A DNA stretch of 64,000 nt from Candidatus Nanosynbacter sp. TM7-074 (GTDB lineage Bacteria > Patescibacteriota > Saccharimonadia > Saccharimonadales > Saccharimonadaceae): assembly GCF_041006295.1 (NCBI RefSeq), contig NZ_CP158487.1:186001-250000 (forward strand). Reading direction: 5' to 3'. The position numbers and the translations under genes are program-made. This document shows, piece by piece, positions 12,464 through 52,615 of this stretch. Within the stretch, counting starts at the first letter, position 1. The number at the start of each line of letters is the position of its first letter. A model generated the notes under the pieces. The model had not been told where the DNA came from. It did no database searches and saw only the letters and a program-made list of their open reading frames with translations.

Positions 12464-13555
12464 ATGCAACCGCTAAAAAAGAAAATTGGAGAGCTGGAAA
12501 AGGAAATTGAGCAGGCTAAGGAGGCACTGAAGTTTTCTGAGCTGGAGCAGAAGTTGGCAGAGTTGGATGAGCAGCTTAACCAGCCAGAGATTTGGAATAA
12601 TCCTGATCACGCTCAAGAACTGACCAAGCAGGCCGCCAATCTTCGCCAGACGGTTGAGCCGTGGCAGACGTTGACAGTGCAGGTGGGCGATATGGTTGAA
12701 TTGATGGAGCTGAGCGATGACGATCTGTTGCCAGAGTTTCAGGCGCAAGTGGAAGCAATTGAAAAGGCGTTTGAAATTCATAAAACGGATTTGTTGTTTT
12801 CTGGGGAATACGATAATCGCTCGGCAATTGTGCGGATTTCCGCTGGAGTGGGCGGTTTGGATGCTCAGGATTTTGCGGCGATGCTGGAGCGAATGTATTT
12901 ACGCTGGGTAGAAAAGTCGGGTATGAAAGCTGACACGCTGGAGCGTTCGACCAATGATGATGCCGGGATAAAGACGGTGGTGCTGGAAATTTCTGGGCCG
13001 TTTGCTTACGGAAAAATGCGTTCAGAGAACGGTGTGCATCGGTTGGTGCGGTTGAGTCCGTTTAATGCTGATAATTTGCGTCAGACCAGCTTCGCGTTGG
13101 TGGAGGTGTTGCCGAAGATCGATACGCCAGATGAAATTGCGATTGATCCGAATGACTTGAGGATTGATGTTTACCGCTCGGGGGGTAAGGGCGGTCAAGG
13201 GGTGAACACGACCGACTCGGCGGTACGAGTAACACATCAGCCGACGGGTATTACCGTGGCGATTCAGAATGAGCGTTCGCAGATCCAAAATAAAGAGACG
13301 GCATTAAAGATTTTGCATTCCAAATTGCTAGCCATGAAATTAGAGCAGCACGCTGAGGCTTTGTCTGATCTGAGGGCGGGCGAGTCAGCCAACTGGGGTA
13401 GCCAGATTAGAAATTATGTTTTGCATCCGTATACATTAGTCAAAGATACTCGCACTAAGCATAAAAACCGCAATGCCCAGGGAGTATTGGATGGTGATAT
13501 TGATGAATTTATCACGGCATATTTAGAGCAGAACGCTAATTCTAAAAATATTTAG
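12464..13555 (+). CDS. prfB: Peptide chain release factor 2
   Basis: Reads UGA and UAA stops. 363 residues from MQPLKKKIGELEKEIEQ. The RF2-specific tripeptide SPF is seen in VRLSPFNADNL and the catalytic GGQ loop in SGGKGGQGVNTTDSAVR. The N-terminus is a coiled coil. The gene is one uninterrupted frame, so the programmed +1 frameshift of E. coli prfB is absent. An intact RF2 agrees with UGA being a stop in this organism. The frame is open from 12383, but the promoter sits inside that extension. Confidence 0.95.
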   Translation: MQPLKKKIGELEKEIEQAKEALKFSELEQKLAELDEQLNQPEIWNNPDHAQELTKQAANLRQTVEPWQTLTVQVGDMVELMELSDDDLLPEFQAQVEAIEKAFEIHKTDLLFSGEYDNRSAIVRISAGVGGLDAQDFAAMLERMYLRWVEKSGMKADTLERSTNDDAGIKTVVLEISGPFAYGKMRSENGVHRLVRLSPFNADNLRQTSFALVEVLPKIDTPDEIAIDPNDLRIDVYRSGGKGGQGVNTTDSAVRVTHQPTGITVAIQNERSQIQNKETALKILHSKLLAMKLEQHAEALSDLRAGESANWGSQIRNYVLHPYTLVKDTRTKHKNRNAQGVLDGDIDEFITAYLEQNANSKNI

Positions 13556-37974: not shown

Positions 37975-38046
37975 ATGCCAATCCACATCAAAGTAGAATT
38001 CCAGAATACAGACAAGGCAGAGACTGTTTCAGTACGCCGCGGCTAA
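37975..38046 (+). CDS. 23-aa small ORF between rsmH and ftsL
   Basis: ATG 37975 to TAA 38046 encodes MPIHIKVEFQNTDKAETVSV plus three residues (RRG). A textbook AAGGAGG lies 6 nt upstream, stronger than that of most genes here. It is followed by a hairpin at 38077-38109. No homologue is known to me. It could be a true micropeptide or a leader peptide for ftsL. Confidence 0.5.
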   Translation: MPIHIKVEFQNTDKAETVSVRRG

Positions 38047-38076
38047 ACTAAAGCGTATTCCGGAATATACCTTAGA

Positions 38077-38109
38077 AAACCAGCCTGTCTGTAGCGGGCG
38101 GGCTGGTTT
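38077..38109 (+). terminator. Hairpin before ftsL (possible attenuator)
   Basis: AAACCAGCC / GGCTGGTTT, 9-bp stem, 15-nt loop, weak T-tract. It lies between the small ORF and ftsL, where it could partly end transcription. Confidence 0.55.
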
Positions 38110-38153
38110 ATTATGTTAATATAAAACAGATAAAAATAAAAAGATAGAGACAA

Positions 38154-38495
38154 ATGACAAACACCACCACATTTACTTCACGACGCTCACACGGTCAAAT
38201 GCGCCGCAATCAGAATTCGACACGCTTTCAGTCTCAGGTCAAACTTGGTCCTGTCGCTCATACAGTGTTAGTGGCATTGATGATTACAGTACTGGGCTTG
38301 ATTTATTTAACCCAGGCAACACGATTAACAGCCTATGGCTATGAAGCTCAAAATTTAGATTCAAAGATTACTGAACTTAGCGCAAAAAAATCAGAACTGG
38401 AAGTTCAGAATGCGCGCTTGACAGCGTTAGAAAAGGTGAAGAGCAGCAATGTTGCTTCAGCCATGACTACAACCGAAACGCGTTATGCTCAATAA
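38154..38495 (+). CDS. ftsL: FtsL-like division protein
   Basis: 113 residues, recognised mainly by position and architecture: basic cytoplasmic N-terminus (1-38), one membrane helix (about 39-60, VALMITVLGLIYLTQATRL), then an outside coiled coil with heptads (LDSKITELSAKKSELEVQNA). In the divisome FtsL pairs with FtsB/DivIC and FtsQ. Sits between rsmH and the PBP gene, the standard dcw place. Confidence 0.8.
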   Translation: MTNTTTFTSRRSHGQMRRNQNSTRFQSQVKLGPVAHTVLVALMITVLGLIYLTQATRLTAYGYEAQNLDSKITELSAKKSELEVQNARLTALEKVKSSNVASAMTTTETRYAQ

Positions 38496-38517
38496 GTGAT
38501 ATAATAAAATAAGCAGT

Positions 38518-40266
38518 ATGCAGCGGCTTATTATTCGTTCAAGAACTGGTTATTTGGCCATCGTTTTACTTGTAGCGATGGCGGCTTTTGTGTTGCGATT
38601 ATTCCAATTGCAGATTCTCCAATATGGTAAATACACAGAGCTGGCTCGTGCTAGTCAGCAGCGTCAGTTTGTTATTCCTGCAGAGCGTGGAAAAATCTAT
38701 ATGATGGACGGAAAAACTCCAGTGCCAGTAGTTCTAAACCAAGCGACTTACACGGTGATTGCGGATCCTCAGGCAGTTGACGATAAGGAGCGGAATCAGA
38801 TTATTACGAGCCTGAGGGAGATTGCTGGCGGGGAGATGACTGATGGGGCGGCTGAACGTTTGGCTAATAAAAAATCACGATATGAGGTTTTGGCAAAAAA
38901 TATCACCAGAACTCAGGCGGAAAAATTAAAAGAGAAAAATTTTGCTGGGGTGCTATATCAGCAGGGTTCCGTCAGGAGCTATCCTGAGGGTGGACTAGGC
39001 GCGCACGTTTTGGGTTTCGTAAATGTAGCGGGCGAAGGTCAATATGGCGTGGAAGGCTCGCTTAATAACCGACTGAAGGGACGCGATGGTCTATTGCAGT
39101 CTGTGACTGACGTGAGAAATGTGCCGCTCACTGTTGGAAAAAATAATATGCGAATTGAGGCAAAGTCTGGCGATAATTTAGCGTTGACGGTTGATCGAAA
39201 TGTTCAAAGTCAGGCGGAGTTGGCGCTTAAAAAGGGGATTGAAGCGGCAAATGCCACTGAAGGTAGTGCGGTTATTATGAATCCCAAAAATGGTCAAATA
39301 TTATCATTGGCAAACTACCCGACATATAATCCAGCGGAGTTTAATAAGCAAAAGAATGCGGCGGTGTTTATGAATAGTGCTTCAATGGTGCCATTTGAGC
39401 CGGGTTCAATTATCAAGTCATTTAGCTTTGCTACAGCTATAGATAAAGGGGCTGTTACTCCGTCTAGTACATATAATAACACGGACTGTATTAAGGTTGC
39501 TGATCGGACGATGTGTAACGCTTTAAGGGGTCTAAATGGTACCACTACGGTTCAAGGAGCGTTTAATAATTCTCTTAACGTTGGTACGATTACAGCAATC
39601 CGTAGGCTGGGGAATGGTTCGCAGATTAATCTTGCTGCTCGTCAAGTTTTATATGAATATTATCATGATAAATTTGGGTTCGGTCAGAAGACAGGAATTG
39701 AACTGGGTGAGGCGTCAGGGTATATTTATCCGCCAGATAGCGTTGAAGGTAACGAAGTACGCTATTCAGCAATGACTTACGGTCAGAGTATGAACCTGAC
39801 GATGGTGCAAGTAGCGGCTGGATTTTCGTCGCTGGTAAATGGCGGCCAGTATTATAAGCCAACTGTCCTTAGAGGGGTAATTGATGGTTATGGTAATCTA
39901 AAATCGTCAGAAAGTAAGTCGATTCGTCAGACGGTAAGCGGCGATACCTCGTCGCAAATGAGGACGATGTTAGCGACTGCTCGCCAATCTTCTTTCTTGT
40001 CAAAAAGTGACAAGCCTGGCTATGAAATCGGTGGAAAAACTGGTACGTCCGAGGCGGTGGTTAACGGTTCTTACACTCAGAGGGAAACGATTGCTACTTA
40101 TATTGGTTATGGCGGTGGTAAAAATGGTGCCGAATATGTCATAATGGTACGTGTAGCGGCGCCAGGTAAGGGGATTAACCTACAAGGAAATTTCCATGCC
40201 GGGCCAATTTTTACGGATATATCCAATTGGATGATTGATTATATGAAAATAGCACCGAAGGAATAG
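38518..40266 (+). CDS. ftsI: Division penicillin-binding protein (FtsI/PBP2-like transpeptidase)
   Basis: Class B PBP of 582 residues: membrane helix at about 10-32, dimerisation domain with PAERGKIYMMDG, then the transpeptidase with the active-site SxxK in EPGSIIKSF, SxN in NNSLNVGT and KTG in IGGKTGTSEA. Cross-links septal peptidoglycan with FtsW. TATAAT at 38500-38505 leaves only about 6 nt before the ATG. mraY follows after 2 bp. Confidence 0.94.
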   Translation: MQRLIIRSRTGYLAIVLLVAMAAFVLRLFQLQILQYGKYTELARASQQRQFVIPAERGKIYMMDGKTPVPVVLNQATYTVIADPQAVDDKERNQIITSLREIAGGEMTDGAAERLANKKSRYEVLAKNITRTQAEKLKEKNFAGVLYQQGSVRSYPEGGLGAHVLGFVNVAGEGQYGVEGSLNNRLKGRDGLLQSVTDVRNVPLTVGKNNMRIEAKSGDNLALTVDRNVQSQAELALKKGIEAANATEGSAVIMNPKNGQILSLANYPTYNPAEFNKQKNAAVFMNSASMVPFEPGSIIKSFSFATAIDKGAVTPSSTYNNTDCIKVADRTMCNALRGLNGTTTVQGAFNNSLNVGTITAIRRLGNGSQINLAARQVLYEYYHDKFGFGQKTGIELGEASGYIYPPDSVEGNEVRYSAMTYGQSMNLTMVQVAAGFSSLVNGGQYYKPTVLRGVIDGYGNLKSSESKSIRQTVSGDTSSQMRTMLATARQSSFLSKSDKPGYEIGGKTGTSEAVVNGSYTQRETIATYIGYGGGKNGAEYVIMVRVAAPGKGINLQGNFHAGPIFTDISNWMIDYMKIAPKE

Positions 40267-40268
40267 AT

Positions 40269-41306
40269 ATGGGAGTAGCCTTACAGACAGTCACTAATGA
40301 ATTAACTCATGTGTTTTTACTGAGCGTTGGGGCGTTTTTATTGGCGATGTTTTTGACGCCAGTTTATACGTTTTTTGCTTATAGGTATCGGTTCTGGAAG
40401 AAGCAAAGATCAGAGAGTACTGATGGCAAAAAATTAAAGGTTTTTGCTAAGTTTCAAGCGGCAAAACTACGGCGAAATATTCCAACAATGGCGGGTGTGA
40501 TTGGTGTGATTTCTATTTTTATTGTGACGTTTTTATTTAACTTGGACCGAGCTCAGACATGGCTACCATTGGCGGCGCTGGTCGGTGGCGGGGCGGTTGG
40601 GCTGATTGACGATGTTATTAATCTACGTGGGCTAGGCGGCGGGGCGGCGGGTTTACGTAGTCCGGTAAAGTTTGCGCTAATTACGCTTATCGGCGTGGTT
40701 CTTGGCTGGTTCTTCTTCGCCAAATTAGGCGTGATGAGTTTTCATGTGCCGTTTATGGGTGATGTAAATATTGGCTGGTTGATTATTCCGCTGTTTGCAT
40801 TTGCGGTAGTGGCAACAGGTAACGCGGTGAATATTTCTGACGGCATGGATGGATTGGCTGGTGGTCTGCTGGGTACTAGCTTTGGTGCTTTTGGGGTGAT
40901 TGCTTTGTTGCAGCAACAGGTACTGTTGGCAGGGTTCTGTTTTACGGTAGTTGGCGCACTTCTTAGCTATTTGTGGTTTAATATTTATCCAGCGCGTTTT
41001 TTCATGGGCGATGTTGGTAGTTTCGCCTATGGAGTGAGTTTGGGGGTAGTAGCTATGCTGACGGATTCGCTGCTATTGTTGCCTGTAATTGGATTGTTAT
41101 TTGTAGTAGAGGCAGGCTCGAGTTTGACGCAAATTGCTAGTAAAAAGATTTTTAAGCGAAAAATTTTCTTATCTGCACCAATTCATCATCATCTGGAAGC
41201 AATTGGCTGGCCGGAAACTAAAGTAACGATGCGGTTTTGGGTGATTGGCTGTGTGATGGCGTTTGTTGGGGTTATGCTGGCGCTAGCGGGGGGGCACATT
41301 GCGTAA
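40269..41306 (+). CDS. mraY: Phospho-MurNAc-pentapeptide transferase
   Basis: Integral membrane enzyme making lipid I. 345 residues, about ten helices. Signatures LIDDVINLRGLGGG, NAVNISDGMDGLAGG, FFMGDVGSFAYG and PIHHHLEAIGWPETKV contain the catalytic aspartates and the HHH motif. AAGGAATAG upstream serves as a weak SD. It overlaps ftsW by 8 bp. Confidence 0.96.
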   Translation: MGVALQTVTNELTHVFLLSVGAFLLAMFLTPVYTFFAYRYRFWKKQRSESTDGKKLKVFAKFQAAKLRRNIPTMAGVIGVISIFIVTFLFNLDRAQTWLPLAALVGGGAVGLIDDVINLRGLGGGAAGLRSPVKFALITLIGVVLGWFFFAKLGVMSFHVPFMGDVNIGWLIIPLFAFAVVATGNAVNISDGMDGLAGGLLGTSFGAFGVIALLQQQVLLAGFCFTVVGALLSYLWFNIYPARFFMGDVGSFAYGVSLGVVAMLTDSLLLLPVIGLLFVVEAGSSLTQIASKKIFKRKIFLSAPIHHHLEAIGWPETKVTMRFWVIGCVMAFVGVMLALAGGHIA

Positions 41307-42591
41307 TTCAGTCGCTAGAAAACACCAGACTTCCACGCAATCGGTTCGCAGTCACCGACCGATGTACCAGATTGTGCTGTATATGGGTCTTTTATTGCTG
41401 CTCGGACTAATCGTTATGTATGCACTGGGGCCACAACGCGCCAATGTGATGAATTACGCTTATGGCACGAATTATAGTGATACTTATTTTTTTGGTAAGC
41501 AGTTAACTAGTGTTGTTATAGCTGTTGTGGCGTTTTCGGTATTTTATTTTGTACCATATAAGTGGTTTACGGGTGAGCGTTCAAAATATGTTCTTTGGGC
41601 GGGATTCTTGTCGTGCGTCTTGCTGTTTTTGCTGGGCTCGCTGCTGCATTTGTCATTGGCCAAAGAAACTAATGGCGCTTATAGATGGTTTTATTTGGGT
41701 GGACTGGGTAGTTTTCAGCCGTCAGAATTATTGAAATATGGCATTCTATTATTCTTGGCGGGCTTTTTGGGGCGGCGTGCTTCTCAAGGGAAGATAAATA
41801 ATATTCATGAAACACTCGTTCCGGTTGGGATTATTTCTGCACTTTCACTGCTGATGATTGTGGTTTTGCAGAAAGACTTGGGTACTGGCGTGTCTTTAAT
41901 AGCCATAGTGCTGTCAATGATAATAGTATCTGGTGTGGATTGGAAGATAATTGGTAAGATTTTAGGAGTGGTGGCATTCTGCGGAATAGTGTTGATATTT
42001 ACCTCACCACACCGAATTGAACGGGTCATGACATTTATTCAGGGCGATAGTCATAAAAACGCGAGTGGCCAAGAGGACAAAAATTATCACATCCAGCAGG
42101 CTAGAATTGCAATTGGTTCGGGGGGTCTTCTGGGGCTTGGTATTGGCAAAAGTGTTCAGGCGACCGGATATCTACCAGAAGCGATTAATGACTCAATCTT
42201 CGCTGTTATGGGAGAGACATTTGGCTTTGTTGGTCTGATGGCTATATTGGCGTTATTTACTGCGCTGCTATTATCGATTTTACACGTAGCGGCACGGCTG
42301 CCAGATACGACTTTGAGGTTGATTGTGGCTGGGATCTTTGGCTGGATTGCTTCACATGTAGTTTTAAATATTGCTGCAATGACAGGACTAATGCCGCTAA
42401 CAGGAATTCCGTTGCCATTATTAAGTTATGGTGGTACAAGTATGCTGTTCATTGCTGCGGCGCTCGGTTTAGTTTTTCAAATTTCCAAGTATACGTCACA
42501 TAAAGTATTAGAGGAGGGTGAAGGTGGCCAAGATCTTAGCGGTCGGCGGCGGCTCAGGCGGACACGTTACGCCAGTGGTAGCCGTATTTAG
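41299..42591 (+). CDS. ftsW: Lipid II polymerase FtsW (SEDS family)
   Basis: 430 residues from TTG 41299. About ten membrane helices; family blocks include GAYRWFYLGGLGSFQPSELL, LQKDLGTGVSL, ARIAIGSGGLLGLGIGKSVQ and GMTGLMPLTGIPLPLLSYGG-like MTGLMPLTGIPLPLLSYGGT. Glycosyltransferase partner of the PBP two genes upstream. FtsW is chosen over RodA by dcw position. The 3' end overlaps murG by 68 bp. Confidence 0.93.
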   Translation: MRNSVARKHQTSTQSVRSHRPMYQIVLYMGLLLLLGLIVMYALGPQRANVMNYAYGTNYSDTYFFGKQLTSVVIAVVAFSVFYFVPYKWFTGERSKYVLWAGFLSCVLLFLLGSLLHLSLAKETNGAYRWFYLGGLGSFQPSELLKYGILLFLAGFLGRRASQGKINNIHETLVPVGIISALSLLMIVVLQKDLGTGVSLIAIVLSMIIVSGVDWKIIGKILGVVAFCGIVLIFTSPHRIERVMTFIQGDSHKNASGQEDKNYHIQQARIAIGSGGLLGLGIGKSVQATGYLPEAINDSIFAVMGETFGFVGLMAILALFTALLLSILHVAARLPDTTLRLIVAGIFGWIASHVVLNIAAMTGLMPLTGIPLPLLSYGGTSMLFIAAALGLVFQISKYTSHKVLEEGEGGQDLSGRRRLRRTRYASGSRI

Positions 42592-43687
42592 GGAATTACA
42601 AAAGACTGGTGATCACGAGCTCCGTTTTTGGTGCGACAAAAAGTTTGGCGCCAGCGCACGTGGGATTTTTGCTAAATTTGATGACACTATTCCAGTTGAG
42701 CTGATTACTGCTGGAAAACTGCGGCGATATCATGGTAAGAGTCTGTCGTTCCATTTACACCCATCAATATTACTACCAAATCTTCGTGACGGCTTTAAGG
42801 TAGTTGTCGGATTTTTCCAGAGCTTATTTAAGCTAATAGCCTGGCGGCCGGATGTTATTTTCATAAAAGGTGGTTACGTTTGTTTGCCTGTAGGGTATGC
42901 CGCGAGATTATTGCGAATCCCGTTAGTCTTGCACGATTCTGATGCTCATCCGGGGTTAACTAATCGCCTACTTAGTCCATTTGCAAAAGCTATTGGTACT
43001 GGTGCGCCCCTCGAATATTACAATTATCCTCCTGAAAAAGCGTCGTATGTTGGTATACCAGTGGCGCCAGAATTTCGTCCTTATTCTGAGGCCGAGCGGC
43101 AAAAATTGAAGGCGAAATTAGGCTTTGATTCCAATAAGCCACTGGTTGTCGTCACCGGTGGTGGGCTGGGTGCTAGGCGTATTAATTCTGCAATTTTAGC
43201 GATCAGAGAAGATCTCTTGGCTGAGACTTCGGTGTTTTTAATATCTGGCAATCAGCAATACGAAGAAATTCTTAAGCAGACTGATGAGCGCAGTGGATGG
43301 CACCTTCAAGCCTTTGTTCATAATGGTATGGCTGAAGTTTTCGCAGCAGCAGATATAGTTGTAACTAGGGCGGGGGCGACTACTCTTCTGGAGTTGGCCG
43401 CGCTTCATAAACCTACTGTGATTATCCCTAACGGCCGTCTGACAGGTGGTCATCAGCTAAAGAATGCCAAGGTGTATCAGGATGCGTTGGCTGCCTTGAT
43501 AGTCTCAGAGGACGAGCTAGATAAGGATAATCGAATTTTGGCGCGGAAGATTATTGGCGTGTTGAAATCGCAGAAGATCCTTAAGGGTTTAGGTGATAAT
43601 TTTGGCAAGTTTGCTAAGCCTGATGCGGCCAAAGATATGGTGAAGATTATTCTGACTACTATACGAAGACAGGGTAGGCGAAGGTGA
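42524..43687 (+). CDS. murG: Lipid II synthase MurG
   Basis: Adds GlcNAc to lipid I at the inner membrane face. 387 residues from GTG 42524 (MAKILAVGGGSGGHVTPV), which has GAGGAGG 7 nt upstream; GTG 42518 is the other option. Donor-site region VTRAGATTLLELAALHKPTVII and GGHQLKNAKVY are as in the family. Slightly longer than E. coli MurG (355), with an insertion near 75-100. It overlaps ftsW by 68 bp and ftsQ by 4 bp. Confidence 0.95.
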   Translation: MAKILAVGGGSGGHVTPVVAVFRELQKTGDHELRFWCDKKFGASARGIFAKFDDTIPVELITAGKLRRYHGKSLSFHLHPSILLPNLRDGFKVVVGFFQSLFKLIAWRPDVIFIKGGYVCLPVGYAARLLRIPLVLHDSDAHPGLTNRLLSPFAKAIGTGAPLEYYNYPPEKASYVGIPVAPEFRPYSEAERQKLKAKLGFDSNKPLVVVTGGGLGARRINSAILAIREDLLAETSVFLISGNQQYEEILKQTDERSGWHLQAFVHNGMAEVFAAADIVVTRAGATTLLELAALHKPTVIIPNGRLTGGHQLKNAKVYQDALAALIVSEDELDKDNRILARKIIGVLKSQKILKGLGDNFGKFAKPDAAKDMVKIILTTIRRQGRRR

Positions 43688-44598
43688 AATTATCTTTTTC
43701 TCGAAAAAAATCTGATAAAAATTTAAGCCGTCGAGAGATTGCTGCTCGTCGGCAGGCTGAGAATTACGATAATCTACCGACGCAGTCATACCGCCGAAAC
43801 AGAACTCTTAATAGTCGCCAGACTATCTCACCGTTAGAGGCCTCTGAACGTCTTGAGGCGCATAATCTAGTAAAAAAACGTCGTCATATGATGCAGAAAT
43901 TATTTATAACTGCGGTATGTCTGTCCGTCGTGGTATTTTTATTGTTCCAGCTGACGATTAGTGTATCTGTCCAGACTCCTGACACTAAAAGTTCTAGCAA
44001 TTCTGGTAAATACGCCAGCGTTCTTAACGAATATTATAATGCCCATCCAGCTGAGCGGTTTAGGTTTTTTCTGAACAATAATGATTTGAGGCAGTTTTTC
44101 TTACAGAAAGCTCCTGAAGTAAAAACTATTCGTGTAGAGGGCGATTTCTTGGCGCGTTCAGCCGCTAAGTTAACTTTTCGTCAGCCAGTAGCTCAGTGGT
44201 CTTCTGGAAATAAAGTTTATTTTGTTGATGATAGTGGTGTTACGTTTGAGCAGAATTATTTTAACCCGCCTACGGTTGCGGTTCGCGACGAAAGTGGATT
44301 ACCTACTCGGGGTGGACAGGAGGTCATAAATCGGCAATTTTTAAGTTTTCTAGGGCAAGCCGTTTCTGAATTCTCGCAACATAAGCTTAAGGTGTCGGAA
44401 GCTATTTTGCCAGCAAATACCGTACGCCAAGTTTGGTTTAAGGTTGAGGGTAGGGAATCCCAGATAAGAATGACTGTTGATAGATCTGCCCGCTCTCAGG
44501 TAAGGCAGGCAATAGTAACTCTGGGATATTTAGATAAGAATGGTCAATCGTCAGGCTATATAGATGTTAGGGTAGACCAGCGGTCTTTCTATAAATAG
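43684..44598 (+). CDS. ftsQ: FtsQ/DivIB division protein
   Basis: 304 residues from GTG 43684, overlapping the murG stop by 4 bp. A basic cytoplasmic N-terminus of about 75 residues, one membrane helix (about 76-98), then a POTRA-like region (VKTIRVEGDFLARSAAKLTF) and the beta domain (PVAQWSSGNKVYFVDDSGV). Regulates septal synthesis through FtsL and the FtsW/PBP pair. ftsA and ftsZ do not follow; the CRISPR region does. Confidence 0.85.
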   Translation: MKLSFSRKKSDKNLSRREIAARRQAENYDNLPTQSYRRNRTLNSRQTISPLEASERLEAHNLVKKRRHMMQKLFITAVCLSVVVFLLFQLTISVSVQTPDTKSSSNSGKYASVLNEYYNAHPAERFRFFLNNNDLRQFFLQKAPEVKTIRVEGDFLARSAAKLTFRQPVAQWSSGNKVYFVDDSGVTFEQNYFNPPTVAVRDESGLPTRGGQEVINRQFLSFLGQAVSEFSQHKLKVSEAILPANTVRQVWFKVEGRESQIRMTVDRSARSQVRQAIVTLGYLDKNGQSSGYIDVRVDQRSFYK

Positions 44599-44605
44599 AG
44601 TAGTC

Positions 44606-44640
44606 AACTTCTCTTTTAGATAGAGTAAGTTCTCTTTTTG
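44606..44640 (+). terminator. Terminator of the dcw cluster
   Basis: AACTTCTCT and AGAGTAAGTT pair with one bulged T (44606-44614 with 44622-44631), followed by CTCTTTTTG. Confidence 0.65.
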
Positions 44641-45451
44641 TTCTATTATGGTTATCTAAAAATTATATATAATAATATAAAAATATGCAAAAGTCAAATA
44701 ATTAAGTCATGACAAACTAGGGGAGCGGGGAAATAAAAATAGGAAAATGTCAAATAATCAAAATCATATGTGTGGAAAACTTATAAGCGAATTGTATGTG
44801 ATACTTGTTGGATATAATGATGTAAAAATATCAATGTGGCATTTGTGGCGGGTGCTTTTAGATAAATGAATATTTTAAGTTCGTGTTTATCGGTGAGTTT
44901 TATTTAGCTTGTTGTGTAGCATGGCCTATGTTGAATGGATAGTGAAGTCCCCTGACTATTTTGGGTAAATAATTGTAATATTTATAGAGTGTGGCTACAT
45001 CAACGGACACATGTATACTCATATTAGGCGTATATTTATTATTACGTAAAATGTGCATTGTGCGACATTAGGACTATATCTAAAACATGATTACTCCCAT
45101 CGTCTTTTTTGGCGTAAATTTATTCTATTTTTATAAATTTAAGATCTCTTTTCTGATTTAGCTTCCTATCCACTGATGGTCCCTGTTTGGATTATCTGAT
45201 ATGCTGTTCTTTTGTGATGGCTTTATAAAACGTTTTTATGATTAGTTATTCTAGATGCTTAGATTTTTTGTTTTTAGGTACCCTTAAGATGTAAATATTT
45301 AGTTCGTATTTTGTTCTGTTTTATTAAGTCTGTTTTTTAAGGAGAGGGCTTGAAAGATAGAACAAACAAAAAAGGCGAATATATTCCTTAGGCTCAGGTA
45401 GTAAAATTTGTTTAAGAACAGTCGAATATATGCAACTATTTGTTGCGGTTT
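44641..45451. other. AT-rich gene-free region upstream of the CRISPR array
   Basis: About 810 bp without a credible gene on either strand; stops are frequent in all frames and composition is more A+T-rich than the dcw genes. Next to the array is a small hairpin GCAAC TATTT GTTGC (45432-45446). The right end is the expected leader position, since the first repeat follows. The rest may be decayed sequence. Confidence 0.5.
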
Positions 45452-46674
45452 GTTATAGTTCCCTAACAATTTAGATATTGGTATAATCATTCCGCAGAGC
45501 GTTATCGTTGCCGCTGAGTTATAGTTCCCTAACAATTTAGATATTGGTATAATCATTCCGCAGAGCGTTATCGTTGCCGCTGAGTTATAGTTCCCTAACA
45601 ATTTAGATATTGGTATAATAAACACTGACAACTTGGATTAACGTTTATAGTTATAGTTCCCTAACAATTTAGATATTGGTATAATCTATCCTCCGGTGTC
45701 CAGTCCGGCTTCAGCGTTATAGTTCCCTAACAATTTAGATATTGGTATAATGAGACTCTAGAAAAACTGAAAAAACAGAGGGTTATAGTTCCCTAACAAT
45801 TTAGATATTGGTATAATCAGATACAGATAAAAGCTAAATGTACCCTAGTTATAGTTCCCTAACAATTTAGATATTGGTATAATTCGCGGCGCTTCTGTTC
45901 AACCACTGCAATAGTTATAGTTCCCTAACAATTTAGATATTGGTATAATTAGTTAATAGGTAGAGCTTATGATTAACACGTTATAGTTCCCTAACAATTT
46001 AGATATTGGTATAATCATTTTTTGTGCCTCCTAATCAAATCAACGGTTATAGTTCCCTAACAATTTAGATATTGGTATAATGCACATAATAATCAGAATG
46101 CTGCTGAGGTGGTTATAGTTCCCTAACAATTTAGATATTGGTATAATGCACATAATAATCAGAATGCTGCTGAGGTGGTTATAGTTCCCTAACAATTTAG
46201 ATATTGGTATAATCGCGCTTTGACTGGTAAGTCTCCTCAATCTGTTATAGTTCCCTAACAATTTAGATATTGGTATAATCCGCGTCTTTCGCGCTCGCAA
46301 CTCCCCTGAGTTATAGTTCCCTAACAATTTAGATATTGGTATAATTCCAATGGTTGCCAAAATCGACATGGTTGAGTTATAGTTCCCTAACAATTTAGAT
46401 ATTGGTATAATCGGCCTTGTGCTTCAATCCCTTTTTCGTCGGTTATAGTTCCCTAACAATTTAGATATTGGTATAATGCAAAGGAGTAGGAGATGCCGCG
46501 AATTAGGTTATAGTTCCCTAACAATTTAGATATTGGTATAATAATCGAGTAGTACAGCCGATAGCCACCTCTGTTATAGTTCCCTAACAATTTAGATATT
46601 GGTATAATGGAGGCTTAGCTCGATGGCACAGCTCCAGAGTTATAGTTCCCTAACAATTTAGATATTGGTATAAT
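45452..46674 (+). CRISPR. CRISPR array, 19 repeats of 36 bp, 18 spacers
   Basis: Perfectly identical 36-bp repeats starting GTTATAGTTCCC and ending TTGGTATAAT. Spacers are 30 nt (spacer 16 is 29). Spacers 1 and 2 are identical, as are 10 and 11, leaving 16 distinct sequences. The repeat end is an extended -10 promoter (TGGTATAAT). Orientation on the + strand is set by the GTT start, by the anti-repeat of the tracrRNA at 51.5 kb, and by the terminator at the 3' side. The array is convergent with cas2-cas1-cas9. No degenerate terminal repeat is seen. Confidence 0.97.
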
Positions 46675-46683
46675 ACTTCCTCA

Positions 46684-46712
46684 AATCTCCCTCTGTTACG
46701 AGGGGGATTTTT
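46684..46712 (+). terminator. Terminator of the CRISPR array
   Basis: AATCTCCCTC / GAGGGGGATT (one G-U pair), 6-nt loop, then TTTTT, 10 nt after the last repeat and 3 nt before the end of cas2. Confidence 0.85.
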
Positions 46713-46714
46713 GG

Positions 46715-47038
46715 TTAGAAAAATGCTAATTGACCAGCGGGTACGTTCTTTTCTTGGACAGTTTTTTCGCCAACGATAACGTACATATGCGTGAATTGAT
46801 GTTCGGTCAAGTATAGTAATCGCACTGATCCGCTATCTGGTGCGTGGCGCTTAACGCGCATCATGTGCTTTTCAGCAACGTCACGATTTGGACATAACCG
46901 CGTATAAACGCTGTATTGCAGCATATCAAAGCCGTCATCCAGCAAGAACTTACGAAATTGTGTGGCGGCTCTACGCTCAGCTTTAGTATTGGTCGGCAAA
47001 TCGAAAAATACCGCGACCCTCATGATTTTATATGACAT
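46715..47038 (-). CDS. cas2: CRISPR-associated endoribonuclease Cas2
   Basis: 107 residues. Ferredoxin-like Cas2 with the metal Asp in VAVFFDLPT and the typical QYSVYTRLCPNRDVAEKHM. With Cas1 it forms the spacer-integration complex. ATG 47038 has GGGAAGGG just upstream; the inner ATG (MRVAVFFDLP) is the family-typical start and an alternative. It ends 10 bp after cas1. In this family Cas2 is structural in acquisition. Confidence 0.95.
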   Translation of the reverse strand: MSYKIMRVAVFFDLPTNTKAERRAATQFRKFLLDDGFDMLQYSVYTRLCPNRDVAEKHMMRVKRHAPDSGSVRLLYLTEHQFTHMYVIVGEKTVQEKNVPAGQLAFF

Positions 47039-47048
47039 CCCTTCCCTG

Positions 47049-47939
47049 TTAGGAGGCGATTTTTGGCAAAAGAAGCTTACGCGCCTCCTTTACCTCGATG
47101 CATTCGATAAAGCTTTCAACTGTTCGCTCGATCGCATGCTTTACAGTAAACTTCTTACCGTCAATTATAACATAATAATTTAATATGTCAATAATAAGCT
47201 GGCGATCGTGCTTGGTGAGGCTGGCGTCGCGGTCGCCGACGTGAAGCGGGGCGACTTTTTCTAGGATATATAAATCAACGGCGGCGCGATAGGGTTCTAT
47301 CAAGTCGTCAGCTAAATTAAAACTATTGAGCTCATTGTGATGGAAAATTCCTTGCGAAGCGACTAGCCCGCGGGCAGCAATGTGCCGAGCGATATGGCTG
47401 CGGACCATCGCGTAGCCATAGTTTAGCGCGGCATTATGCCAAATCGGCTTACGGCGTGTGGCGTCGTCGAGTAGCTGGTCAAAATATATGCGAGCAGCTA
47501 GCGACTCGCGATTACTAGTATCGCCTGATTTGACATCGCTAATATGGGTACGCAAGGCGGTGTCATCTAACCCGATAGATTGTAAGACATCGGCTTGGTT
47601 GGTGATTTTGCTGATGATAATTTGTTGCCACAATTGCTTTTTGAGCGGTTGACTCATGGCAAGTTGTTGGCGTGAAACTTTGGCCTGCCGTGAGTGCTGT
47701 GAATACGGCAGAAGTACGCTAGCTGGTAGATGCTTTTCGTCACAAATAACAGTTGTGGTGCCTTTGGTCGCCAACGCTGTGAGTAGATTTGTGGTCGCAG
47801 TCATGCCATAACCGTCCAGGATGAGCGCATCGATATCTTCAATCGGCAAAGTTGCCTCAGTTTCCTGCGCAATTACCAGCTGGTTGTCGCGCAAACTCAG
47901 TCTGGCAGGATTTTCGATAGCTACGACGCGCCAGGCCAT
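47049..47939 (-). CDS. cas1: CRISPR-associated integrase Cas1 (type II)
   Basis: 296 residues, the size of type II Cas1. The integrase triad can be placed: Glu145 (NRESLAARIYF), His200 (IFHHNEL) and Glu215 (DDLIEPYR), matching the E-H-E arrangement of S. pyogenes Cas1. The ATG follows the cas9 stop without a gap, and ACAGGTGG inside the cas9 end acts as SD. No cas4 or csn2 accompanies it, so the operon is type II-C. Confidence 0.96.
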   Translation of the reverse strand: MAWRVVAIENPARLSLRDNQLVIAQETEATLPIEDIDALILDGYGMTATTNLLTALATKGTTTVICDEKHLPASVLLPYSQHSRQAKVSRQQLAMSQPLKKQLWQQIIISKITNQADVLQSIGLDDTALRTHISDVKSGDTSNRESLAARIYFDQLLDDATRRKPIWHNAALNYGYAMVRSHIARHIAARGLVASQGIFHHNELNSFNLADDLIEPYRAAVDLYILEKVAPLHVGDRDASLTKHDRQLIIDILNYYVIIDGKKFTVKHAIERTVESFIECIEVKEARKLLLPKIAS

Positions 47940-50900
47940 TTATAACCACCTGTAGTTATCGCCGAGAACGGAGATGTCGTAACGTTCGATGAGAGTGGCT
48001 GTTTTGGCTGATTTGCTGATTAAGTCGTTATCGTTTTTACTTGTTTCGCTGTGCTTTATAAGTTTTAAACTACCGTTGTTAGTGTTATATTTTACGTAGT
48101 ATCCTTCAACGATCTCGTTATCAAAATATATTCGCACGTAGTCATTTGGATATATAGAGAATTGTTTTATAAATCCATTTTCTAGTGTTGCATATATTTT
48201 ATCATCCTTTGTTCGGATAGTGTCAAAATCTGCCTTTTCATTCTTACTTCGACCAGTCGGCGTCGGCAAAACTTCAATCTTTTGGGCGTTTATCAAATGA
48301 GTATAGACTGGAGCAAAATAATATTCGTATATGTCTTTATAGTTTTTGCGTTTATAAACATCAAGGCGAATAGTCTTGCCATTATTCACAAAAGCTCTTT
48401 GCTCGTTAACTAAGAATCCACTCCTTGAATCTCGTGTGTTATATATTTTTATACTGCGTACAATATTACCGCGTTTACTATCTTTTGTTGGTTTGTAAAC
48501 GTTCTCGGAGAATGCTTTTGCTGGATTGTCATTAGAATCCTTGAGCCGCTGTTCCAAAATTTTGTACAATTTAGGATCCGTTTCACGAATTGGTGAATCG
48601 TATAATTTTTTAAGATCTACAGAATGAAGCGGCATTCGTTGTTTGCGTGCAATGGCGGGCTTCCCTTTTTCGTCAATGTAGCCTGCTACGATTTTAGGTG
48701 ATCGGAAAGTTTCGCTATTTGTTGAGCCTTTTCCAGATCGTTTAGGCATGCGTGAAACAAATATAGGTAGTGTACTCAAACGAAATTCTTCATCGTAGTT
48801 TTTTAAACCAGTTAGTTCATTATGGAGCTCGCTTGGTGTATTGTATAGTTTACCGCGTTTTCGCACCTCCTTACCAAAATCATCCCAGGGCTCAAGATCT
48901 GCTATATGCTGTTCAAATTGATTACGATCAAGAACCTCGCCTGTTAGTTTGTCGACAATCTCGTTTTTATCAGTATATTTGAATAATTCGTAGTATTTAT
49001 TAAGACTGGATACTTTTTGAATAATGCCTGGGTCTGTCGCGGCAATAATGCAGGCATCAGTTGCATGATGCAAATTATTATCATCGCGATTTTTATTGCC
49101 AACACGCCACACTCTTCTTAAATATGAAGTGATTGGTCCGCTTGGCGAGAAGACTCTCTGCGTGCCAGTCTTGCCTTCAATTTTAGGAAAATCTAAATTA
49201 TCACGAATATATTGACGTAAAAAACGTGAAATATATCGAGTGTCGTTGAGCGCGCGTACATTCCAATCTTCAACTGGCTTACTTTTTGACAGAAGGCGAT
49301 CTCTTTTAGCGGCTGGCAATCCAGTGGTCGCTCTTACACGTGCTTCAAATTGTGTCCATTTTTTATTATCTCCACCCCACGCCTCATATGGTGTCAGATT
49401 TCCTTTCTCTTGATTCTCGTCTGCAAAAACCAAAACTTTATTGTTTAATCCATCGTTGCCGCAGCGTGAAAATGGTATAATGTGATCTATCTCGCCATAA
49501 TGTTCATCTGTGAAAAGATTTTCAAGATTTATTTCTGTGCCTGAGTAAAGACTAACACCGTTTTGCTGTTCACGTAATTTAAACTTAGTAATTTGTAGTC
49601 CTGTTGGTGTCGGTATATTAAATTCATTAATAAGCTTCTGTTTAATTTTTTCGTTATATTCAGCATTCTCGTCTTGAATCTTTTTTATCTTATCGCGTTC
49701 TTGCGCATTTTTTGCTAGTTCACTCGCCGCTTCTAACTTTACACTGTACGGCAAGCCGTACTTTCTGATTACAGCATTAACTACTTTAATAGTTTGAGAT
49801 ACCGCACGTTTGACGACGGGATTAGTGATTTGGTTTGCCTGTTTTTTTGATAGTGGTGGTAATTTCTTCTTGTTGCCAGAAAGACTTTGAGAAAAACTGT
49901 AGCCAGCTTTTTCGACCGCCTCGCTATAATTTAACCCTCTTAATAGCCATGGGGTTATTCTATGGAGAGAGTTAAATGACAAATGGACAAAGCCACTAAC
50001 GTTGATTGGTAAAAGTGCCTCGATGGCATCAGTGCTTATGTTTAACTTTGATAGCTCTGCGCGTAGACTTGAGTCGTCTTTATTTACTGTTAGTATCAAC
50101 CCTGCATTATCTAATAGTTCAAAATTGTTGGCAGCTAGTATATTCCAATCTTTTGGATATTGTTCAAGGTTCTTTTTGACAGTATGGTAAAATATCATTG
50201 AGTCAAATTTATTGCCTTCGCCGTTCTTTTTGTCGTCATTTTTAATTTTGCCGCGTATCATGCCTTGAGCAAAACTAAAGCTTTGATTACCCTTATATCC
50301 AAGTGTATCGCGAATGTGCTCATACTTTAACTCTTTAACGTTCTTTGCTTTTTTGATTATTTTTGCGATCTCGTTTTCAGATAACTGTCGAGTTTCTTGA
50401 TCGACTACAATGCGAAGATGAGATAGATTTTGGGCGAGACGAAATAACTCAAAACTATAGCTAGCCTTTGGTGCGCGAGGCTTTTCTAGTTCAAATTCAC
50501 AATAACCACGCATCTTTTTAATCAGTTCACTTGTCATGAATGGTCGCTGTGAAAATATACCATTGTAGTTGCCATTTTTTACATCACCATACAGCAAGGT
50601 CTGTATTTTTTCATATGGTAGTTTAAGGCCAAATTTTTCCTGAGACTCAAGAAGCAGCATAACTTCATCTTCAAAATTCTTACGAACAAATGAATTTTTA
50701 TATGTGCTTGTTTTATTACGTTTATTGTTCTTAAATTTTTCATCAAGCGTAAGTACTTTAGCGACTGATTTTGTCTTATACTTTTCCAAAAGCAGTTTGT
50801 TCTCAGAAACAGCAGATAACACTTGAGATCCTTCAGTATCCTGCTTTTCTACAGACATACGGTTACTTTTGTATCCACGTCTTTTCGCTATATGATAAAG

Positions 50901-51296
50901 AGCCACGAACAGTTCTTCTGGTGAGAGTTTTTCTTTTAAACCCTTGATACGTAGGGCGTAGGGGTCATAGGTTGGCTGCCATTTCTTAGGGTGAATTGGA
51001 CTAAGCATATCGTTTATGCGACTCTCTGATATCAGATTGTTATCAATAAAGAACCGCTTTAGATAATTAAGCCTTTGTCGGCGTCTCCTTAGTCGGTGTC
51101 TAGCGGATCTGGCAATCCTGCGTGGTTCAGCAAGACTCTTGCCGGTTTTTGGTACTTCTGGCCGCTCAAAAATCCTCACTCCCAAATCGTGAATACGTTC
51201 TTTATCCAAGTCTAGCACTGCCCAGCCGATTGAGCTCGTACCGACGTCTAGCCCTAGCGAATATTTTTTCGGTGAATATGAAGATTTCTGCGCCAT
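47940..51296 (-). CDS. cas9: RNA-guided endonuclease Cas9 (type II-C)
   Basis: 1118 residues, compact II-C size. RuvC-I LGLDVGTSSIGWAV with Asp17; arginine-rich bridge helix at about 57-83 (PRRIARSARHRLRRRRQRL); RuvC-II Glu522 (SVKLEAASELAKN); HNH Asp604-His605 and Asn628 (DHIIPFSRCG, ADENQEKGN); RuvC-III His744 and Asp747 (LHHATDACII). The HNH block is close to Neisseria Cas9 (DHALPFSRTW, SENQNKGN). All nuclease residues are intact. The C-terminal 250 residues should hold the wedge and PAM-interacting domains; the PAM cannot be read from sequence. SD AAAGGA is 9 nt upstream. More A+T-rich than the flanking dcw genes. Confidence 0.97.
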   Translation of the reverse strand: MAQKSSYSPKKYSLGLDVGTSSIGWAVLDLDKERIHDLGVRIFERPEVPKTGKSLAEPRRIARSARHRLRRRRQRLNYLKRFFIDNNLISESRINDMLSPIHPKKWQPTYDPYALRIKGLKEKLSPEELFVALYHIAKRRGYKSNRMSVEKQDTEGSQVLSAVSENKLLLEKYKTKSVAKVLTLDEKFKNNKRNKTSTYKNSFVRKNFEDEVMLLLESQEKFGLKLPYEKIQTLLYGDVKNGNYNGIFSQRPFMTSELIKKMRGYCEFELEKPRAPKASYSFELFRLAQNLSHLRIVVDQETRQLSENEIAKIIKKAKNVKELKYEHIRDTLGYKGNQSFSFAQGMIRGKIKNDDKKNGEGNKFDSMIFYHTVKKNLEQYPKDWNILAANNFELLDNAGLILTVNKDDSSLRAELSKLNISTDAIEALLPINVSGFVHLSFNSLHRITPWLLRGLNYSEAVEKAGYSFSQSLSGNKKKLPPLSKKQANQITNPVVKRAVSQTIKVVNAVIRKYGLPYSVKLEAASELAKNAQERDKIKKIQDENAEYNEKIKQKLINEFNIPTPTGLQITKFKLREQQNGVSLYSGTEINLENLFTDEHYGEIDHIIPFSRCGNDGLNNKVLVFADENQEKGNLTPYEAWGGDNKKWTQFEARVRATTGLPAAKRDRLLSKSKPVEDWNVRALNDTRYISRFLRQYIRDNLDFPKIEGKTGTQRVFSPSGPITSYLRRVWRVGNKNRDDNNLHHATDACIIAATDPGIIQKVSSLNKYYELFKYTDKNEIVDKLTGEVLDRNQFEQHIADLEPWDDFGKEVRKRGKLYNTPSELHNELTGLKNYDEEFRLSTLPIFVSRMPKRSGKGSTNSETFRSPKIVAGYIDEKGKPAIARKQRMPLHSVDLKKLYDSPIRETDPKLYKILEQRLKDSNDNPAKAFSENVYKPTKDSKRGNIVRSIKIYNTRDSRSGFLVNEQRAFVNNGKTIRLDVYKRKNYKDIYEYYFAPVYTHLINAQKIEVLPTPTGRSKNEKADFDTIRTKDDKIYATLENGFIKQFSIYPNDYVRIYFDNEIVEGYYVKYNTNNGSLKLIKHSETSKNDNDLISKSAKTATLIERYDISVLGDNYRWL

Positions 51297-51329
51297 GAAG
51301 AAGTCCTTTGTTATGCTATGTTTGAGATA

Positions 51330-51335
51330 ATTATA
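51330..51335 (-). promoter_or_regulatory. cas9-cas1-cas2 promoter -10 box
   Basis: TATAAT on the reverse strand; +1 near 51323 gives a 27-nt leader with AAAGGA. A weak -35 (TTTCAA) lies 17 nt upstream. Confidence 0.6.
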
Positions 51336-51380
51336 TAATCAAAAGTTTATAATTGAAAGCGTAAGTGTATTTATGTAAAT

Positions 51381-51518
51381 AAAAAGATAATCCGCCCAAC
51401 AAGTGAGCGGATTAGTGCTTTGCTCCAGTATTTCATATACTTTACAGCGGATTTTTACCGCCAGATTATTATAGAAACCTAGAACAATTTAGATATTGGT
51501 ACAATCCTTACTTAAGGG
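51381..51518 (-). ncRNA. Predicted tracrRNA
   Basis: On the reverse strand a 38-nt anti-repeat (51505-51468) pairs with the whole CRISPR repeat: a 3x3 internal loop near the repeat 5' end, a 2-nt bulge, and a compensating G-U pair where the repeat TATAAT faces ATTGTA. Downstream are hairpins GCGG-UAAAAAU-CCGC and AGUAU-AUGAA-AUACU, then an 8-bp stem UAAUCCGC/GCGGAUUA (51414-51388) and UCUUUUU. A TACAAT -10 at 51530-51525 predicts a start near 51518, about 138 nt in total. Stands just upstream of cas9 on the same strand. Confidence 0.85.
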
Positions 51519-51524
51519 ACTGTA

Positions 51525-51530
51525 ATTGTA
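51525..51530 (-). promoter_or_regulatory. tracrRNA -10 box
   Basis: TACAAT on the reverse strand, 7 nt before the inferred tracrRNA start at 51518; no good -35 at 17 bp. Confidence 0.5.
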
Positions 51531-51577
51531 GTTTAGCGCACTTATTATGATTGCGCAAGTGTCTGGTTAAATAGTGC

Positions 51578-51583
51578 TATAAT
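51578..51583 (+). promoter_or_regulatory. Extended -10 of leaderless speD
   Basis: TGCTATAAT, last base 8 nt before ATG 51591. Divergent from the tracrRNA promoter. Confidence 0.7.
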
Positions 51584-51590
51584 TACTAAT

Positions 51591-51938
51591 ATGAACACAT
51601 CTGGGATACAATCTATCGCCATTAAGGTGAGCGGATCTAACTCTGCCCTGCTTGATGATGCAGATGGGTTGCAGAAACTAATGCGCGACATTGCCGAGGC
51701 GGCTAGCTTACATCCCTTAGAGTCGGTAACTCATCAGTTCTCGCCGCAGGGAGTTAGCTCTGCCCTGCTTTTGTCTGAATCACATATCGCAGTTCACACA
51801 TGGCCGGAAAATGGTACTGCCTATATATCAATGACTACTTGTAAGATTTTAGAAGATGTCACCGTTCAGCAAATACAAGAATTGATTTGTCGAGAATTGG
51901 CGGTTGAATGCGTAACTATGAAAAAGGTAGATTTATAA
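51591..51938 (+). CDS. speD: S-adenosylmethionine decarboxylase proenzyme
   Basis: 115 residues, the short bacterial class 1B form. The self-cleavage site is Glu63-Ser64 in LSESHIAVHTWPE, where the serine becomes the pyruvoyl cofactor; the catalytic Cys84 lies in SMTTCK. Makes decarboxylated AdoMet, the aminopropyl donor. Its stop overlaps the next start, and an aminopropyltransferase is two genes on, so this is a polyamine-type operon. Confidence 0.95.
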   Translation: MNTSGIQSIAIKVSGSNSALLDDADGLQKLMRDIAEAASLHPLESVTHQFSPQGVSSALLLSESHIAVHTWPENGTAYISMTTCKILEDVTVQQIQELICRELAVECVTMKKVDL

Positions 51939-52615
51939 TGATGAAACGTACTAAAGCACGTCTGAAGATTAACCAGATTTTGACTGGAAAGAAGACAAAT
52001 CTGCGAGTGGTTGGCTGCTTGCTGTTTCGTGAGTGGAGCGAGAAAGATAAACGCTTTTACTACTGGGAAGAATGGGAAATCACTGGCCTAGCTGATTATG
52101 ATACTTGGGTTGAGTATGACCACAGTGACGAGGTTGTATCTTTATATGAGCCAATTCGGTTTACTAGGTCAATTGATCCGCAGCAGCTAAAAAAAGGCCA
52201 ATCTTTTACTCTTTCCGAGCAGGATGGAACGGATCATGTTGTAGTTGTTGATGAAGTTGGCGTGGGCGAAATCGTGAATATTAAAGGTAAAAATACCTAT
52301 CAAGTTTTTCCAAAAGAAATGATGGCCTACGCTACGCTGCGGGACAGTAAAGCGCCGAAGGGGCGCCAGCTAATTACTATTGAGAAGTATAATAATCGTG
52401 AGTATGATGCTTATCGTAAAGTGAAGCTAGACTCTAAAGAGCAAAAGCGAATATTCGGCAGGACAATTACGCCGATTAATTGGTGGATGATTATATTTAT
52501 AGTGTTTATTGCCGCTGCTGTTATATTTACATTTTTGGATAATAGTTCTAGTGATGGGCATAGTGGCGGAGCGCGCGGTGTTTATGGCGGCAGTAGTGGC
52601 GGATTTGGAAAGTAG
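51938..52615 (+). CDS. DUF4178-like membrane-anchored protein
   Basis: 225 residues from ATG 51938, overlapping the speD stop (taATG). Residues about 15-175 are a beta-rich DUF4178-like domain (KTNLRVVGCLLFREWSEKDK, FYYWEEWEI), followed by a membrane helix (about 188-208, NWWMIIFIVFIAAAVIF) and a Gly/Ser-rich tail (GGARGVYGGSSGGFGK). DUF4178 proteins commonly neighbour speD and spermidine-synthase-like genes. Biochemical role unknown. Confidence 0.75.
   Translation: MMKRTKARLKINQILTGKKTNLRVVGCLLFREWSEKDKRFYYWEEWEITGLADYDTWVEYDHSDEVVSLYEPIRFTRSIDPQQLKKGQSFTLSEQDGTDHVVVVDEVGVGEIVNIKGKNTYQVFPKEMMAYATLRDSKAPKGRQLITIEKYNNREYDAYRKVKLDSKEQKRIFGRTITPINWWMIIFIVFIAAAVIFTFLDNSSSDGHSGGARGVYGGSSGGFGK

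Follow-up and report, generated by a model that had tools for sequence, protein, structure and literature searches.

The window, i.e., the complete analysed stretch of 64,000 nt, carries a type II-C CRISPR-Cas9 locus of a Nanosynbacter-like Saccharibacterium, comprising cas9, cas1, cas2, a tracrRNA gene, and a CRISPR array. The host assignment is based on SecA of the window, which shares 98–100% identity with three proteins named Candidatus Nanosynbacter lyticus among the 120 matches listed. The array adjoins cas2, cas1, and cas9, which are situated on the opposite strand. The features considered here are located as follows.

45431–45447, plus strand: weak 6-bp hairpin shortly 5′ of repeat 1, within what would be the extraneous guide
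45452–46674, plus strand: CRISPR array of 19 identical 36-nt repeats and 18 spacers, all of 30 nt except for one of 29 nt
45479–45487, plus strand: extended -10 motif TGGTATAAT closing repeat 1, the same element closing all 19 repeats
46675–46714, plus strand: 40-nt leader, from the last (acquisition-side) repeat to the cas2 stop codon
46684–46712, plus strand: terminator-like hairpin with T run, facing array transcripts and located before cas2 (z -3.3; 2 of 200 shuffles as good)
46715–47038, minus strand: cas2 (TIGR01573; PADLOC Cas2_II)
47049–47939, minus strand: cas1 of the type II (NMENI) family (TIGR03639, 279.7 bits)
47940–51296, minus strand: cas9, 1118 aa (TIGR01865, 707.7 bits; Pfam HNH_4, RuvC_III, and Cas9_RuvC; PDB Cas9 matches)
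51381–51523, minus strand: predicted tracrRNA upstream of cas9, with a putative 5′ end and a terminal hairpin plus T run
51469–51505, minus strand: tracrRNA antirepeat, able to pair with repeat nt 2–7 and 11–36, 2 nt of the tracrRNA being bulged
51530–51535, minus strand: candidate tracrRNA -10 TAAACT, with a TTGCGC -35 (51553–51558) at a distance of 17 nt, chosen by eye with relatives
51575–51593, plus strand: example of a putative host leaderless-type promoter, TGCTATAAT, followed by 7 nt and the ATG of a gene which we take to be speD-like

As in type II-C systems, the Cas9 effector carries HNH and RuvC domains, the repeats measure 36 nt and the spacers about 30 nt, and a tracrRNA with antirepeat is present. 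Neither csn2 nor cas4 was found in the operon, since only three ORFs occur between the array and position 51296 (ORFs of at least 90 aa, positions 38000–52000). All 19 copies of the repeat, GTTATAGTTCCCTAACAATTTAGATATTGGTATAAT, are perfectly identical. Tandem duplicates are given by spacers 1 and 2 (45488–45583) and by spacers 10 and 11 (46082–46177). In L007, a relative with the same repeat, spacers 1 and 2 are likewise identical to each other, their sequence being unlike that of the window. Two reverse-strand ORFs overlap the array (45299–45631 and 46040–46393, minus strand), contain repeated IIPISKLLGNYN, and could be misannotated as genes. Between the array and a gene that is presumably ftsQ-like, approximately 850 nt (44599–45451) are devoid of an own ORF of 80 aa. 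A plasmid record of Subdoligranulum variabile (OY725839.1, positions 42210–42510) matches the array region with 70% in four pieces and perhaps contains a related II-C array. In the protospacer search of phages and plasmids, weak (82%, E 0.4) or repeat-spanning matches were the only ones obtained; in viral_contigs, seven of the 16 unique spacers, sought as 20–22-nt parts, gave no match, and the exact repeat was not found either.

The last nine bases of each repeat, TGGTATAAT, constitute an extended -10 motif, present in 19 of 19 copies (the last at 46666–46674), in agreement with what the sequence-only reading of this DNA had stated. From base composition, TGNTATAAT is expected at one fixed place with a chance of about 3e-5. 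Outside the array, it occurs 18 times, whereas 60 order-1 Markov simulations gave 3.5 copies on average, and TATAAT is over-represented in the window anyway (80 copies outside the array versus 52.5 expected). Exact TGGTATAAT is found in five copies outside the array, three of which are located 6–7 nt 5′ of an ATG (13560 plus, 21149 plus, and 21133 minus).

For comparison, 78 loci were collected by Cas9 alignment from a species genome collection, 49 of them with and 29 without an array. From 48 arrays and the window, 39 distinct repeats were derived; the array of L046, whose consensus is cut at 32 nt, and a second, unlike array of L074 were left out. TANNNT is present at the 3′ end of 38 of the 39 distinct II-C repeats and at none of the mirrored ends, although P values overstate independence here, the arrays being akin to one another. 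At the position of the extended -10, TG occurs in 32 of 39 repeat 3′ ends versus 3 of 39 mirrored ends, and the single base that separates TG from the -10 is free (A15, C13, G11). The 11 distinct repeats of Saccharibacteria and other CPR contain TATAAT without exception and TG in nine cases. In II-C, the -10-like element closing the repeat is hence both strand-specific and conserved, and the analogy to type II-C repeat promoters that had been drawn earlier is borne out at the level of sequence.

A repeat end of this kind could be merely promoter-like if the terminal inverted repeats (GTTATA...TATAAT) were a matter of Cas1-Cas2 and the crRNAs derived from one long precursor. Indeed, the 5′ end GTTATA mirrors TATAAT save one base, and 33 of the 39 mirrored ends read TATAAC. 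However, the TG is confined almost entirely to the 3′ end, and the final T, present in 38 of 39 repeats, breaks the symmetry, because a perfect inverted repeat needs a C opposite the first base, which is G in 39 of 39. Since these asymmetries of the 3′ end are needed by a promoter and left unexplained by integrase symmetry, the promoter reading is favoured; neither chance nor the symmetry required by Cas1-Cas2 accounts for them equally well. A precursor starting upstream is also at odds with a flank that lacks similarity to four relatives (see below), and we regard this alternative as very improbable. The sole exception at the last base is L022, whose repeats end with TATAAC and whose array is located on the cas9 strand. 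Upstream of this array (12531–12895), TGTTATAAT is found; L022 has possibly switched to a leader promoter.

The element at the repeat end recurs in the host in front of start codons. In the window, TGNTATAAT followed by 6–8 nt and ATG was observed nine times, compared to a mean of 0.23 and a maximum of 2 in 60 order-1 Markov simulations. Counting each TATAAT that precedes an ATG by 0–29 nt where this ATG opens an ORF of 100 aa or more, a spacing of 6–7 nt was found in 57 of 155 cases of the Saccharibacteria set, whereas Clostridia and Campylobacterota together gave 7 of 91. The 57 cases comprise 12 in the window, 36 in 360 kb of a relative with the same repeat, and 9 in ten further loci, nine of which are titled Saccharibacteria and one, L003, “bacterium” only. 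Besides the main peak, a smaller one at 10 nt is visible in the 360 kb of this relative (L112–L129 of G001) and in other Saccharibacteria. A -10 situated 6–8 nt before the start codon is the placement of leaderless-type mRNAs, and the earlier suggestion that repeats and host leaderless-type starts share one element agrees with these counts.

If those genes are leaderless, their -10 spacing of 6–7 nt would place the +1 at spacer nt 7–8 and give guides of 23–24 nt. The first crRNA start is predicted at about 45494 (spacer nt 7), give or take 2 nt, and a guide of about 22–25 nt would remain. The +1 at spacer nt 7 proposed by the sequence-only reading thus survives as a position near nt 7–8, while a guide of “exactly 24 nt” is too precise. 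Among the 19 positions, one per spacer plus one in the leader, nt 7 is T in seven, G in five, C in four, and A in three cases, i.e., a purine in 8 of 19. Selection for a purine at this position was considered and rejected, the purine share being 0.51 over 582 unique 30-nt spacers. Due to the eight purines and the lack of a general purine bias, the start sites probably scatter or slide.

The scarcity of purines at the predicted +1 sites is also in line with a mixed mode, in which the repeats act as weak promoters and upstream read-through or a few strong repeats supply the bulk of crRNA, whose 5′ ends are then trimmed. An extra strong promoter within a spacer is reported for C. jejuni PT14 (PMC4283603), and a promoter may be located in the 850 nt that precede the array, although the number of sigma-70-like matches in 44600–46720 is at chance level (11 versus 11.4). 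On the other side, TGnTATAAT is present in every repeat, and the upstream flank shows no similarity to four relatives, so that we judge the mixed mode unlikely. In detail, for the 100 nt upstream of repeat 1, similarity to L002, L007, L009, and L010 is not above the shuffle mean; six relatives were compared, of which L014 (truncated) and L012 (with a repeat remnant) were not counted. L007 has a repeat identical to that of the window, yet its upstream flank shows no similarity beyond shuffles. The weak hairpin directly before repeat 1 was rejected as a strong insulator, since the fold of 45418–45460 is not significant (z -1.2).

On the cas2 side, the picture is different: the 40-nt leader is more similar to that of L002, L007, L009, L010, L012, and L014 than all 200 shuffles, i.e., in six of nine relatives, while for L011, L015, and L020 the similarity is no greater than that of shuffles. 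The leader hairpin of the window reaches -14.6 kcal/mol in the array direction versus -1.6 kcal/mol in the cas direction. A terminator-like hairpin was scored when a stem plus T run with an energy of at most -8 kcal/mol was located no further than 80 nt past the last repeat. This applied to 30 of 49 arrays, whereas random windows gave 7 of 392 and clean upstream flanks 2 of 34. For the latter, 10 of the 49 arrays, which start within 80 nt of a sequence end, and 5 with a repeat remnant were set aside; in a wider set including unclean starts the count is 2 of 40. Among Saccharibacteria and other CPR, 11 of 12 arrays possess the hairpin, except for L060. The 19 arrays below the threshold belong mostly to Clostridia and Campylobacterota: besides L060, these are L017, L019, L021, L023–L026, L030, and L051 of Clostridia and kin, the seven Campylobacterota L035, L038, L049, L053, L058, L059, and L063, and the two Alphaproteobacteria L073 and L074. 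In ten Saccharibacteria, loop-side CTGTT or CTGTA is constant and the stem letters vary.

We consider the hairpin likely to be the stop signal for transcripts of all 19 repeat promoters. Alternatively, it could end transcripts of the cas operon instead of those of the array, or be a leader signal for Cas1-Cas2 only: two convergent units flank it, the cas direction scores too in 16 of the 49 arrays, and a leader so close to the site of integration should be conserved in any case. By a hand count, however, 15 of 16 one-directional hairpins face the array transcripts (including L022 with its array on the cas strand), and the difference in energy between both directions in the window points the same way. 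A role apart from the array is therefore somewhat unlikely.

Degenerate first repeats occur in 16 of 49 arrays, including 14 of the 34 whose start is clean, and degenerate last repeats in none of 49. As degeneracy affects the first and never the last repeat, new spacers are added on the cas2 side, at the last, transcription-distal repeat. This is the pattern across arrays; the 19 identical repeats of the window give no signal. The direction of spacer acquisition, the post-array hairpin, and the tracrRNA gene were all points on which the sequence-only reading was silent.

For the tracrRNA, 25 of the 49 loci were tabulated (11 CPR, 14 Clostridia and kin). In 18 loci (16 Campylobacterota-type, 2 Alphaproteobacteria), no antirepeat was located in the 900 nt upstream of cas9, and six loci were left out owing to a repeat counted before or to insufficient upstream DNA. 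In the 25 loci, each of repeat nt 20–35 can be paired in at least 24, nt 36 in 20, nt 8 in 16, and nt 9–10 in none. Repeat nt 33 can be paired in 25 of 25, by identity in 18 and otherwise by G-U. In the window, the plus strand of the antirepeat ends with TGGTACAAT, a weakened -10. TATAAT on the complementary strand of the tracrRNA gene is intact in 1 of 11 CPR loci versus 11 of 14 Clostridia-type loci. Since the complement loses TATAAT in CPR and 11 of 11 CPR repeats keep it, pairing alone does not preserve this motif; due to its retention in the Clostridia-type complements, this control is valid in CPR only. As an alternative to the candidate -10 of the tracrRNA gene, TACAAT overlaps TAAACT. 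Just before the antirepeat, a palindrome of the CCTTAAGTAAGG type is located at 51506–51518, which also occurs in L007, L010, L012, and L020 and as variants in L002, L011, and L015, and is absent in L014.

The antirepeat can pair with most of the repeat, its promoter half included, and an RNase III gene was found in 10 of 11 relatives, the completeness of the one miss not being given. Absence of RNase III from the host lineage was thus rejected as a reason for this design, and the independence of RNase III that had been proposed for the array does not follow. Based on the gene and the pairing, RNase III probably makes the crRNA 3′ end, as in C. jejuni.

Taken together, we hold with considerable confidence that this is a II-C array in which every repeat serves as a promoter with starts at about spacer nt 7–8, combined with a leader terminator, tracrRNA pairing, and trimming of 3′ ends by RNase III. 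The host RNA polymerase would recognise TGGTATAAT without a good -35, and each repeat would start a transcript about 7–8 nt into the following spacer; as transcription would start inside the spacer, the crRNA 5′ end would be set by initiation. These transcripts would run toward cas2 and halt at the leader hairpin before turning antisense to the cas genes. The tracrRNA would pair with most of the downstream repeat, RNase III would probably trim the 3′ end, and the products would presumably serve interference, with new spacers joining at the cas2-side repeat.

It is tempting to speculate further that the II-C array of Saccharibacteria is a ladder of promoters, 19 in this case, tuned to the -10 of leaderless genes, with a leader terminator that protects cas2 and an opposite-strand -10 of the tracrRNA gene that has been weakened. 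The weakening would affect nt 33, where G-U keeps the pairing, and nt 36, where the last pair is lost, and would avoid a promoter pointing away from the tracrRNA gene. This wider proposal is tentative, and we rate its chance a little short of even. At the level of sequence, the repeat-promoter mode of crRNA production is extended to a lineage of ultrasmall episymbionts and tied to the promoter grammar of the host. A concrete prediction is offered for guide lengths and 5′ ends, and attention is drawn to a putative leader of the terminator type.

In the N. meningitidis II-C system, the guide reportedly comprises 24 nt and the repeat reportedly ends with TACAAT. For this species, whose system was studied by Zhang et al. 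(2013), a promoter within each repeat and the dispensability of RNase III for interference are described (PMC5052741); belonging to a different phylum than the host of the window, it gives no ground to assume the same independence of RNase III here. Per-repeat promoters are stated as a general trait of II-C in PMC12080349 and likewise in PMC13187072. Exceptions are reported for Riemerella, in whose repeats no promoter was found (PMC5006608), and for Flavobacterium columnare with a TTG motif only (PMC8092290). Type II-C1 has already been catalogued in Saccharibacteria (PMC10746230), the same subtype and lineage as in the window; in the main text of this source, the word “promoter” does not occur. 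The study of extraneous crRNAs in II-C reports acquisition at the last repeat as well as terminators and hairpins upstream of the array (PMC12080349). Its analysis concerns the upstream side, whereas the putative terminator of the window is located downstream, on the acquisition side, and is not described in the part of that source available. In the open-licence literature searched, as far as its text was accessible, neither a downstream terminator in II-C arrays nor leaderless genes in Saccharibacteria or CPR were found described, which is not to claim that they are unpublished.

The closest parallel is given by C. jejuni (Dugar et al. 2013, PMC3656092), which shares with the window the extended -10-like repeat end and the arrangement of cas9-cas1-cas2 plus tracrRNA. 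In C. jejuni, starts inside each spacer were seen as transcripts, whereas in the window they are predicted; its repeats end with GGTAAAAT and its primary transcripts begin at spacer position five, compared to TGGTATAAT and nt 7–8 by the host rule in the window, and RNase III is needed once, for the 3′ end (PMC3656092). Repeat-embedded promoters are thus a known II-C trait, in print since 2013, to which the window adds another member; the putative terminator-leader and the match to leaderless-type promoters would be modest additions to it.
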